The notes under the pieces are model-generated. The model made no database searches, was not told the origin of the DNA, and saw only the letters and a program-made list of their open reading frames with translations. A DNA stretch of 64,000 bases from Haloarchaeobius sp. HME9146 (GTDB lineage: Archaea > Halobacteriota > Halobacteria > Halobacteriales > Natrialbaceae), in assembly GCF_025399835.1 (NCBI RefSeq), contig NZ_JAODVR010000001.1, positions 1,488,001 to 1,552,000 of the forward strand. Reading direction: 5' to 3'. Made by a program: the position numbers and the translations under genes. Positions 10,926 to 15,110 of this stretch are shown here, in pieces. How positions within the stretch are numbered: position 1 is the stretch's first letter; every line of letters begins with the position of its first letter.

Positions 10926-11246
10926 TCAGTGGTCGTCTTCGCGCCACTTGTGCTCGCACTCGGTGCAGATGAAGAATCGCGTCTCGGACTCGTCCGCGGA
11001 CCGGATCTGTTGCATGTACCAGTACGCCTGGTCGTTCTCACACTTCGGACAGATGGCGTTGGTCTTGGCCAGCCCCTTGTCCTCGGCGTCGCTCACGTCG
11101 ACGACCTCGCTCACTTCCTGGGCTTCGGTCGTAACCATCGAGGCTTCAGAGACCGCATCGCGGGCTTTCTCGAAGTCGCAGTTCCCACAGACCCAGTAGT
11201 CGCCCTCGGTCTTCATCATGGAACCGCATTCGTCACAGAACTCCAT
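10926..11246 (-). CDS. tfs: transcription factor S (TFS)
   Basis: A 106-residue archaeal homologue of TFIIS and of the Rpb9/Rpc11 subunits. It stimulates the RNA-cleavage activity of paused RNA polymerase. The N-terminal zinc ribbon uses Cys4, Cys7, Cys20 and Cys23; the C-terminal ribbon uses Cys66, Cys69, Cys94 and Cys97. Asp85-Glu86 in SADESETRF is the acidic pair at the tip of the hairpin that reaches the polymerase active site, so this should be a cleavage-competent factor rather than an inhibitory paralogue. The linker is long and acidic. Monocistronic. Confidence 0.95.
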   Translation of the reverse strand: MEFCDECGSMMKTEGDYWVCGNCDFEKARDAVSEASMVTTEAQEVSEVVDVSDAEDKGLAKTNAICPKCENDQAYWYMQQIRSADESETRFFICTECEHKWREDDH

Positions 11247-11722: not shown

Positions 11723-12232
11723 ATGACCCTCTCGGACGAGGCTCGCGAGCGTCTGGCCGACGTCGTCGAACTCCAGCCGACGAAGAACGGCGAGCTACAG
11801 AAGCGGTGGGGTATGGAGAGCGGGAGCGAGGTCCACCAGTACCTCGAGAACGAACTGAAGGAGTACTACTATCGAGACGACAACAGCCTCATCCGCGCGA
11901 CCGCCGAGGCCGCAGAGCTGGTCGACGTCGAGCCGGGCGTGCAGGCCGACGAGGACGGTGACGGGACCCCGACCGCGGTCCGCGTCCCCGAACTCCAGGC
12001 CCACATCTTCGAGGTGCTGGCCGGTCCGGAGGAGGACGGCCAGAGCGTCGTGAGCGTCCTCCACGCGGTCCGTGACGCCTTCGACGTGGACGACGACGTG
12101 AGCGCGGACGAGGTTCGCTCGGCGCTCCAGGCACTCCGGCGCAAGGGCGTCGTCGAGGTCATCTACACGACGGTCCCGACGTTCCGCCTCGCGGTCGCCC
12201 GTGAGGACATCGACGTCGCCGTCGCGTCCTGA
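11723..12232 (+). CDS. DUF5797 protein, probable tandem winged-helix
   Basis: A 169-residue protein, recognised by its conserved N-terminus (LADVVELQPTKNGELQKRWG, about 11-30) as the haloarchaeal DUF5797 family. The first half reads as a helix-turn-helix domain ending in an aromatic patch (KEYYYRDDNSLIRAT). The second half (about 92-160, ending RRKGVVEVIYTTVPTFRLA) has the helix-helix-beta-hairpin pattern of a winged helix. It is therefore a likely DNA- or RNA-binding protein; the binding role is inference. Its TGA overlaps the ATG of the Nmad3-like gene (TGATG), so the two are translationally coupled. Confidence 0.75.
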   Translation: MTLSDEARERLADVVELQPTKNGELQKRWGMESGSEVHQYLENELKEYYYRDDNSLIRATAEAAELVDVEPGVQADEDGDGTPTAVRVPELQAHIFEVLAGPEEDGQSVVSVLHAVRDAFDVDDDVSADEVRSALQALRRKGVVEVIYTTVPTFRLAVAREDIDVAVAS

Positions 12233-13080
12233 TGACCGTCGTCTGCTGTGGCATCGGTGCCGACACCACGAACGTCTCCTTGCGCGATTCTCGTGTCCCA
12301 CTCGTCGACGATGCGGGCCGCTTCGAGTACCTCCCGATTCCCGAGAAGACCCGCGACACCCGTGAGGAACTGACCTTTGGAACCATACCGCGACGAACCG
12401 GTGACGGGACGATGGCCGACCTGCTCGCCAGCCTCACGCCTGACCCGGACGGGTCCGGGGAGTCGATCACCGACCCCGCGGCCATCGCGGCGTACCCAAC
12501 GCACCACGACCCGAACTTCGACGCGCTGACCTACGGCGAGCATCGGCCGGGGTACGTCAACCGGCTGGCCGCGCTCGAGAGCAACGGCGACGACGCGGTC
12601 GCGTTCTACGCCGGGCTCGAGGACGACGACGGCCGGCTCCATCGCTACCTCGTCGGCTGGTTTCCGGTGGGCAAGAAGACCGTCGTCGAGGCCGACGACG
12701 ACCCCGCCACGAAACGGCAGAAACTCGCCGGACACCCCGACAACGCCCACACCAAGCGGGCGGTCGACGGGCTTCCCTACAGGGACGACCGGCGCGTCGT
12801 ACTGCTCGATGGTGATTCCGACACCGACGACCTCGGCGGCGGCCTTCTCGACCGCGCCGGGCCGAAGATGAGCACCTTCGCGGCCTTCGATGGCGAACGC
12901 CGGGGGTACTTCCTCGACGACGAGTTCGTCCGCGAGTTCGAGGTGAACAAACCTGATCACGACCCCGACAGCAGTCTGCGCGCCGACAAGGCGGGCGTGA
13001 CCCGCAAGCCGGCTATCGTCTGCGACCTGACCGCACGGGAGTTCCGGGACCGACTCTCCTCGCACCAGGACGCTTCCTGA
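12232..13080 (+). CDS. Nmad3-like putative nucleotide-modification protein
   Basis: A 282-residue protein. The layout fits the Nmad3 (nucleotide modification associated domain 3) family: a short N-terminal strand, a glycine/aspartate turn, an LPIPE segment (33-37), then THHDPNF...LTYGE..RPGYV (about 89-112), AVAFYAGL (about 122-129) and RYLVGWFPV (about 138-146). The family is known from modified-DNA contexts, but its chemistry is undefined. The ATG at 12232 was kept, rather than ATG 12412, because the LPIPE region lies upstream of the latter and the TGATG coupling to DUF5797 supports it. The gene ends directly against the stop of the convergent DUF5787 gene, with no base between them. Confidence 0.6.
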   Translation: MTVVCCGIGADTTNVSLRDSRVPLVDDAGRFEYLPIPEKTRDTREELTFGTIPRRTGDGTMADLLASLTPDPDGSGESITDPAAIAAYPTHHDPNFDALTYGEHRPGYVNRLAALESNGDDAVAFYAGLEDDDGRLHRYLVGWFPVGKKTVVEADDDPATKRQKLAGHPDNAHTKRAVDGLPYRDDRRVVLLDGDSDTDDLGGGLLDRAGPKMSTFAAFDGERRGYFLDDEFVREFEVNKPDHDPDSSLRADKAGVTRKPAIVCDLTAREFRDRLSSHQDAS

Positions 13081-14124
13081 CTACTCCAGTCCCGGTCGCT
13101 GCCGCCGTCTCCGGTCCGCCAGCAGTCGCTTGAGTCTGGTGCCCGGCCCGCCCGCGATCGGCCACCCCTTGGTCCGCCACGCGGGCGGTTCGGGTTCGAA
13201 GTCGCCACATCGCCCCGAGCACTCGCCCGCGGTCTGGCACCGGCCCTTCGCCGCACACCACGGGAGCAGGGGACCGTCCTCGCGCAACTCGAAGTACCGG
13301 CAGTCCGGGCGCATCGTGTCGGCGAACGACCGCCAGCCGCGCTCGTAGGCGCGCTCGGCGATCTCGAGGCGCTTCTGGGCCTTCCACTCGGGGTCGGCGT
13401 ACCGGAACTCGGCGGCCGAGGCGTCGAAGTCGCCGCCGTCGGGCCGGTCGAGTATCATCGTCCCCGGGTCGTCGACCGCGAGGCGGCGGGCGTGCCACGC
13501 CACGGTCGCGTCGTTCGCGTCGGTGTCGACCGTGAGGATGCCCGCTTGCACCGGCATCCCCTCCAGCAGGACGGGTTCGACCGTCTCTCCCGTCGCGCGG
13601 GAGGCGACCCACACCTCGTCGGCGAGCGTCAGCGCCACGTCGTACTGGATCTGTTCGACCAGCGCGTCGGCCGCTTTCGCGTCGAGGTCGGGCTTGTTCT
13701 CGATGGCGACGATTCGATTCACCCAGTCGGGGTACGCCCACTTGCGGCGAATCTGGATGCGGTTGCCATCTTTGCGTTCTTCCAGGATACCCCGCGTGCT
13801 CGCCCGGTGGATAGCCTCGCGGACGTAGCGCCACGGGTAGCCCGGTTCCGGCAGGCAGTCGCGGTAGTAGGTCCACTCGGCGGGTGCATGGCGGACGACG
13901 TGGAGGAGGTCGGAGTCGAGCGCCTCGTGGCCGAAGTTGGCCCGCTGGCGAAGCGCGTCAGCACCGCATTCGAGGACGATTGTGTCCCAGCATCGGCGTT
14001 TCGTGCCGAGCTGGCGGGCGACGACGATGGGATTCTCCCGTTCTTCTCCGGGCGGCCACGACCGCTCGGCCCACCGACACACCCGCAACTCGAAGCCGAA
14101 CTCGGTGTCCTCGCCCGGAAGCAT
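13081..14124 (-). CDS. DUF5787 protein, putative PD-(D/E)XK nuclease with Cys cluster
   Basis: A 347-residue protein of the haloarchaeal DUF5787 family (recognised by its FGFELRVC start and its YPDW..RIVAIENKPDL core). Residues 138-175 look like the catalytic hairpin of a PD-(D/E)XK nuclease: Glu142-x-Lys144 in AIENKPDL, followed by Gln158/Gln160 and then a strand DEVWVAS. Asp47 in the earlier strand RCWDTIVLEC could be the motif II aspartate. The C-terminus carries Cys275, Cys290, Cys296, Cys302 and Cys306, like the Fe-S or zinc clusters that staple Cas4/AddB-type nucleases. The nuclease reading is my inference. It is convergent with the Nmad3-like gene and divergent from the small membrane protein at 14197. 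Confidence 0.7.
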   Translation of the reverse strand: MLPGEDTEFGFELRVCRWAERSWPPGEERENPIVVARQLGTKRRCWDTIVLECGADALRQRANFGHEALDSDLLHVVRHAPAEWTYYRDCLPEPGYPWRYVREAIHRASTRGILEERKDGNRIQIRRKWAYPDWVNRIVAIENKPDLDAKAADALVEQIQYDVALTLADEVWVASRATGETVEPVLLEGMPVQAGILTVDTDANDATVAWHARRLAVDDPGTMILDRPDGGDFDASAAEFRYADPEWKAQKRLEIAERAYERGWRSFADTMRPDCRYFELREDGPLLPWCAAKGRCQTAGECSGRCGDFEPEPPAWRTKGWPIAGGPGTRLKRLLADRRRRQRPGLE

Positions 14125-14532: not shown

Positions 14533-14970
14533 CTAGATGCCGCCGTTCTTCTCGAGTTCGTTCAGGAACTCGTGGGCGTCCTCGAGTATCTCTCGTGGAC
14601 CGTCCTGGGTGACGGTGTTGAACGCCTGGTCGTAATCGCGCCACTGCAGGTCGCGATGTTCCGTCGACAGTTCTGCCGACGCTTCGTAGGACTTCGCGAT
14701 GAACAGGTGGACCGTCTTGTGGATGGTCTTCCCGTTCGCCTCGAAGACGTAGTCGTAATCTTTGCGGAATCCGTCGATGAGACGGAAGTCGTTGATGCCT
14801 GCTTCCTCTTTTACTTCTCGTATTGCGGTCTGTTGGAGCTCTTCGTCTCCTTCGACGCCGCCCTTGGGGAATTCCCAGTCCCCGGGGCGACTCTTCAGCA
14901 GCAAGTACTCGCGCCGGCCCCGCGTATCCCGAAAGAGGATGGCACCTGCGCTCGTAGCATCTACTGCCAT
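14533..14970 (-). CDS. Nudix hydrolase, diadenosine tetraphosphatase type
   Basis: A 145-residue Nudix enzyme. The Nudix box runs from Gly37 to Ile59 (GX5EX7REVKEEAGI) with no missing residue. PGDWEFPKGG just before it and a conserved Trp in LQWRDYDQA (about 108-116) are typical of asymmetric Ap4A hydrolases, which clear dinucleoside polyphosphates. The substrate is family-based inference. The start MAVDATS at 14970 was chosen; a start at 14988 (MVYQWV) is also in frame. Monocistronic, divergent from the S10-like gene. Confidence 0.88.
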   Translation of the reverse strand: MAVDATSAGAILFRDTRGRREYLLLKSRPGDWEFPKGGVEGDEELQQTAIREVKEEAGINDFRLIDGFRKDYDYVFEANGKTIHKTVHLFIAKSYEASAELSTEHRDLQWRDYDQAFNTVTQDGPREILEDAHEFLNELEKNGGI

Positions 14971-15110
14971 TACCCATTGGTAAACCATCCCCAGTTAAGA
15001 GAATATCGGAGAGCGCGCCAGAAATCGGGGCTGGATTCGCCTCGTCCCCGGCCACGGAACAATCTCAATGGCTTTTTGGTGGTGTCGCGTCTCAAAATCA
15101 GTACCTGACC

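Follow-up and report, generated by a model that had tools for sequence, protein, structure and literature searches.

We analysed a 64,000-nucleotide stretch of the 4.19 Mb Haloarchaeobius sp. HME9146 genome (contig NZ_JAODVR010000001.1, positions 1,488,001 to 1,552,000, forward strand; hereafter the window), in which genes of the families DUF5797, Nmad3 and DUF5787 lie together, using family assignments, coordinates, residue conservation, predicted folds, distribution and gene order. A first-pass annotation, made from the sequence, had proposed these three genes as a nucleic-acid modification and cleavage system. Its coordinates were exact in frame and its families were confirmed by Pfam:

11723..12232, + strand: DUF5797 protein, 169 amino acids, probable tandem winged-helix DNA- or RNA-binding protein, core haloarchaeal gene (PF19110, E = 5e-81)
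12230..12234, + strand: TGATG stop–start overlap, coupling DUF5797 to Nmad3 (read from the sequence)
12232..13080, + strand: Nmad3 protein, 282 amino acids, predicted PUA-like (EVE/ASCH/YTH) fold (PF18754, E = 2e-23)
13081..14124, − strand: DUF5787 protein, 347 amino acids, predicted PD-(D/E)XK nuclease (PF19100, E = 7.5e-118)

The TGATG fusion and the base-to-base convergence of Nmad3 with DUF5787, both described in that annotation, are seen in the sequence: the Nmad3 stop codon ends at 13080 and the stop codon of the minus-strand DUF5787 gene begins at 13081, so that the two genes abut. Nmad3 scored 83.9 bits against PF18754 (Pfam gathering cut-off 27). Comparison with two congeners showed that purifying selection is acting on all three genes; against the closest sampled congener, the proportions of synonymous differences (pS) were 0.27, 0.42 and 0.35 for DUF5797, Nmad3 and DUF5787, respectively, and those of non-synonymous differences (pN) were 0.05, 0.08 and 0.06.

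Predicted fold and active site of DUF5787

The DUF5787 protein was modelled with AlphaFold2, using 59 aligned sequences that cover both DUF5787 paralogues and many families, and 1000 Foldseek candidates were then structurally aligned to the model (VIA-align Z scores). The model (mean predicted local distance difference test score (pLDDT) 89.5, predicted template modelling score 0.89) comprises, in order, helix 8–22, strand 33–40, strand 45–53, a winged helix, strand 135–143, helix 149–165 and strand 170–176. D47 lies within the second strand (45–53) and E142-N143-K144 lies at the end of the third (135–143); this order, and the placement of D47, E142 and K144, are as expected for the PD-(D/E)XK superfamily, consistent with the nuclease reading of the first-pass annotation. 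The three residues, which it had positioned correctly, are invariant across all 59 homologues, as are E8, F9, E12, E20, R37, Q38, G40, R44, N143, P145, Q158, C275, C290, C302 and C306, with C16 nearly so.

The top structural match of the model was 3dnx (Z 11.5, root-mean-square deviation 4.2, 141 of 146 residues), followed by PaqCI (Z 10.3), XisH (2okf and 2inb; Z 9.4 and 9.1) and AF2093 (Z 8.3), and further down by Card1 (Z 7.5), SfsA (7.2) and BsaWI (7.1). The best of the matches that span the core are all either titled restriction endonucleases or proteins that we take to be PD-(D/E)XK members. Residues 70–129 on their own align with many winged-helix proteins (Z about 7–8), so in the model a winged helix (about residues 63–132) interrupts the core. 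Fold and motif together make DUF5787 a probable metal-dependent PD-(D/E)XK nuclease. In its catalytic site, D47 and E142-x-K144 would be joined by Q158 and by either E12 or E20; the inserted winged helix would bind a duplex or a junction, and the C-terminal Cys4 motif may hold zinc or an Fe–S cluster.

Several known nucleases resemble DUF5787 in part. A predicted PD-(D/E)XK core together with conserved cysteines recalls the Fe–S nucleases Cas4, AddB and Dna2, and the protein had been called Cas4/AddB-like. However, its four invariant cysteines all follow the core (C275-x14-C290-x11-C302-x3-C306), whereas in those nucleases one precedes the core and three follow it (C-x2-C-x5-C); searches in Pfam and PADLOC gave no profile match to Cas4, PDDEXK_1 or AddB, and no helicase or CRISPR neighbours were seen. 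The Cas4/AddB likeness is thus not supported. The restriction enzymes PaqCI and BsaWI share the predicted catalytic core, but DUF5787 has no adjoining methyltransferase partner and differs in its near-universal vertical conservation and its two paralogues. The best match, 3dnx (SPO1766), is presumably a member of the MmcB family. DUF5787 has in common with MmcB the predicted core and a proposed DNA-repair role; in contrast to MmcB it is archaeal, duplicated in nearly every genome and roughly 200 residues longer, with the winged helix inserted in its core, the C-terminal Cys4 motif and no sequence match to a Pfam nuclease, and none of the 59 members matched the MmcB profile in Pfam. MmcB itself is an SOS-regulated PD-(D/E)XK endonuclease of Caulobacter (PMC9578287). 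Single-sequence and profile searches for solved relatives of DUF5787 or of Nmad3 returned chance matches only, and NCBIfam gave no match for either protein.

Distribution and gene order of DUF5787 and DUF5797

Two genome samples were searched, one of 145 Halobacteria (class sample) and one of 197 Halobacteriota (phylum sample). DUF5787 was present in 144 of the 145 Halobacteria, nearly all with 2–3 copies and Haloferax volcanii included, and DUF5797 in 143. The phylum sample had each family in 32 haloarchaea and neither in any non-haloarchaeal member. Nmad3 occurred in 112 of the class-sampled genomes and also in 12 non-haloarchaeal Halobacteriota of the phylum sample; the description of three haloarchaea-restricted genes thus holds for DUF5797 and DUF5787 but not for Nmad3.

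The two DUF5787 paralogues are about 31–36% identical, and the second keeps a conserved neighbourhood of aIF2-gamma, PIN, RpoE (Rpb7-like), Spt4 and DUF359 genes. Since the family is near-universal, has two paralogues and retains this neighbourhood, we regard DUF5787 as a probable housekeeping protein and not a restriction protein; the evidence points to a role in DNA repair and recombination or in RNA processing. A restriction-modification reading was rejected on distribution, as neither DUF5787 nor DUF5797 is patchy, and the restriction-like system of the first-pass annotation is not supported, DUF5787 being near-universal, vertically conserved and duplicated; PADLOC returned no significant match for the proteins of the locus, and a scan of IMG/VR found no relatives of DUF5787. 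A protein of metallo-beta-lactamase fold also adjoins the second paralogue (L101:2815-5211 and the equivalent loci L082-L100). One second copy matches in two pieces (G045:C1:642329-643291) and is possibly a frameshifted, decaying or insertion-bearing gene.

Gene order was taken from match coordinates and from sequence stretches around the matches. By match coordinates, DUF5797 and the DUF5787 copy on its side are convergent and less than 4 kb apart in 98 genomes; with 15 more convergent pairs, found by searching the genomes that coordinates had left unassigned (G026, G040, G054, G063, G068, G075, G076, G078, G088, G109, G112, G113, G121, G124 and G139) the total is 113 of 143 genomes, 87 of them with the genes within 300 bp. 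At this frequency chance adjacency was rejected, and DUF5797 and DUF5787 are ancestral convergent neighbours. Around the pair, a NUDIX gene (cluster 2) was found in 27 of 38 loci and a TFS-like gene (cluster 4) in 18; these and further genes prolong the shared order, and the NUDIX gene upstream of DUF5787 belongs to the ancestral order. Both flank the trio in the window:

14536..14988, − strand: NUDIX hydrolase, upstream neighbour of DUF5787 (PF00293, E = 2e-18)
10929..11246, − strand: TFS-like transcription factor (TFIIS zinc ribbon), on the DUF5797 side (PF01096, E = 2e-18)

The junction between DUF5797 and DUF5787 holds 0.4–2.4 kb in 26 genomes. In the loci opened (L109, L110, L111, L113, L114, L115, L117 and L124) the inserts are mutually unrelated, and include a class II aminoacyl-tRNA-synthetase-like gene (at the junction in three genomes of one family), a TnpB/OrfB_IS605 transposase, a PHO4 transporter, a beta-helix protein, GNAT, DUF4397 and HTH_10 proteins and a methyltransferase. 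Given these unrelated inserts, the 3′–3′ junction looks like a permissive landing site, with Nmad3 as one of several arrivals. The synthetase-like proteins carry an anticodon-binding domain and are about 420–440 amino acids long (L109:4773-6053 (−), L110:3922-5241 (+) and L115:4487-5740 (−)).

Sub-threshold matches of DUF5797 members to GntR, TrmB, LexA, MCM4_WHD and other winged-helix families make this a probable winged-helix protein that binds nucleic acid; of the earlier tandem winged-helix description, it is the winged-helix character that these matches weakly uphold. The N-terminal half of DUF5797 (about 66–83 residues) behaves as a detachable domain: it turns up again in large proteins of haloarchaea, joined to a superfamily 1 helicase, a ResIII helicase with DUF4011, a VWA domain or an HNH repeat (L201:3368-6253 (−), L195:1-6588 (−), L197:1407-3698 (+), L198:1600-3816 (+), L078:1-2076 (+) and L194:2758-4395 (+)), and this recurrence in helicase, VWA and HNH proteins points to a nucleic-acid-directed role.

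Nmad3 as a probable base reader at a genus-specific position

The first-pass annotation had cast Nmad3 as a putative modifier. Its model (pLDDT 85.2) instead resembled domains of the kind that read modified bases: the best PDB matches were 2p5d, 2hd9 and 1wmm (Z 6.0–6.6), which we take to be EVE proteins, followed by ASCH, YTH, THYN1 with 5-methylcytosine DNA and McrB N-terminal domains (Z 4–6.6 overall), so that nearly every match fell within one PUA-like superfamily (EVE/ASCH/YTH). Foldseek independently ranked an ASCH domain first (best E 0.07), and a fold search of BFVD gave weak matches only, with ASCH proteins among them. The EVE domain and its relatives are binders of modified bases and probably act through base flipping (PMC7641849). 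As the model resembles these binders, we take Nmad3 for a probable modified-base reader of PUA-like fold and not a modifying enzyme. Nmad3 differs from the EVE, ASCH and YTH readers in being about 100 residues larger and in giving no sequence-family match; its modest likeness to them lies in the top structural matches and in a GD-x4-Y motif, in which a weak profile alignment pairs the invariant D121 and Y126 of Nmad3 strands with D38 and Y43 of EVE. A DUF5787 profile aligned to EVE as a negative control gave a probability of 0.1. Among the untested candidates of DefensePredictor is an NMAD domain of unspecified type (PMC13092281), a listing that does not bear decisively on Nmad3.

Among class-sampled genomes, Nmad3 adjoins DUF5797 and DUF5787 in 1 of 145, that of the window. 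In Haloarchaeobius, DUF5797 and Nmad3 stand together in all six genomes and DUF5787 adjoins them in four, lying about 7 kb away in the other two (G146 and G149). The TGATG overlap recurs in one further genome (G145, locus L136), and gaps of about 13–16 bp separate the two genes at the remaining Haloarchaeobius loci (L141, L080, L081 and L140). The three genes had been expected to be neighbours across haloarchaea, a check set beforehand; the arrangement proved to be confined to this one genus, with Nmad3 elsewhere in all other sampled genera, which speaks against the three as a system. The closest Nmad3 matches in named contigs came from Haloarchaeobius species (74% identity), and in the Nmad3 tree the genus groups with Nmad3 of its own family and one genome of family f3. 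The tree fits a resident gene that was relocated to the Haloarchaeobius site, although arrival by horizontal transfer may also account for it. A conserved Nmad3 partner was sought in 20 other genomes and rejected: each family has different neighbours, and the most frequent cluster among them, a single-linkage mix of hexapeptide-repeat acyltransferase-like proteins, was dropped.

Competing explanations of the locus

We consider it fairly probable that the locus joins a core haloarchaeal nuclease, DUF5787, to a genus-specific relocation of the probable base-reader gene Nmad3. In the Haloarchaeobius ancestor, Nmad3 would have entered an ancestral tail-to-tail pair of DUF5797 and DUF5787 at a point immediately after DUF5797, and it would be co-expressed with that gene. 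Several results weigh against this explanation. Foldseek E-values of DUF5787 against the PDB are weak (best 6.8e-3) and none of its 59 members matches any Pfam nuclease family, so the superfamily assignment is one of fold and motif. The structural matches of Nmad3 are modest, with Z no higher than 6.6 and under the range that is safe on its own (a Z below 8 being no proof), and hhalign of Nmad3 with 21 archaeal EVE sequences was weak (probability 5.9, E 0.006, 42 columns). No paper in the literature searched names DUF5787 or DUF5797, and the kept tail-to-tail order of these two genes could reflect a functional link.

That the three genes form a module, with DUF5797 binding DNA, Nmad3 modifying or reading a base and DUF5787 cutting, for modification-dependent restriction or repair, seems very unlikely to us. 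In its favour, Nmad3 directly follows DUF5797 in all six Haloarchaeobius genomes, with DUF5787 next to it in 4/6, and the pairing of an EVE or PUA-like reader with a nuclease is a known plan of modification-dependent restriction (PMC7641849). Yet Nmad3 sits elsewhere in the other genera, DUF5797 and DUF5787 persist in almost every one of the 33 haloarchaeal genomes that lack it (G021 alone lacks both), and the latter two lack both the patchiness and the PADLOC matches of a defence system, with DUF5787 on the opposite strand and, in two congeners, kilobases away. A two-gene operon of DUF5797 and Nmad3 with a function of its own, pairing a base reader with a winged-helix partner (for example as a regulator sensing modified DNA or RNA), with DUF5787 as an old neighbour only, is unlikely. 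In its favour, the couple is overlapped or closely spaced in every Haloarchaeobius genome and stays intact in the two where DUF5787 is not adjacent. The coupling is, however, limited to one genus; 111 other Nmad3-bearing genomes of the class sample separate the two genes, and for that reason their partnership must be dispensable for either protein. DUF5787 could also be an inactive PD-(D/E)XK-like protein that binds nucleic acid or serves as a structural component, for instance of the transcription or translation machinery, as two nearly ubiquitous paralogues, the second among information-processing genes (RpoE, Spt4, aIF2-gamma), would suggest, and a winged helix with a Cys4 motif could serve binding alone. 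Inactive PD-(D/E)XK proteins usually lose some catalytic residues, whereas all 59 sequences, from both paralogues, keep the complete set of D47, E142, K144 and Q158, which makes an inactive DUF5787 rather improbable.

Should DUF5787 be the core nuclease that we favour, it would represent a nuclease family of the Halobacteria whose two ancient paralogues occur in practically all species and on which the literature searched has nothing published, and point mutants of its predicted active site would give experimental access to a gap in the DNA repair or RNA processing of haloarchaea. The interesting aspect is this ubiquity of an uncharacterised family, for which the nuclease reading is credible. 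Nmad3 as a probable EVE/ASCH-type reader would, for its part, alter the annotation of the Nmad3 family. A highly speculative extension, to which we give very little credence, is that in Haloarchaeobius the DUF5797–Nmad3 couple recognises modified bases, whether in the nucleic acid of the host or of an invader, and guides the otherwise housekeeping DUF5787 nuclease to them; if true, this would be a genus-specific modification-dependent nuclease, built by a reader gene moving into a core repair locus.

Extra divergent copies of Nmad3 are carried by small contigs of Haloarchaeobius that are probably mobile (L137, L138 and L139; genomes G149 and G145), and proteins that look TIR-like by eye lie near them. 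Scans of a phage collection and of IMG/VR found no Nmad3 relatives, but the window Nmad3 matches PHROG 34025 (unknown function) over its whole length (E = 5e-56), and a virus- or provirus-borne relative therefore exists in PHROG.

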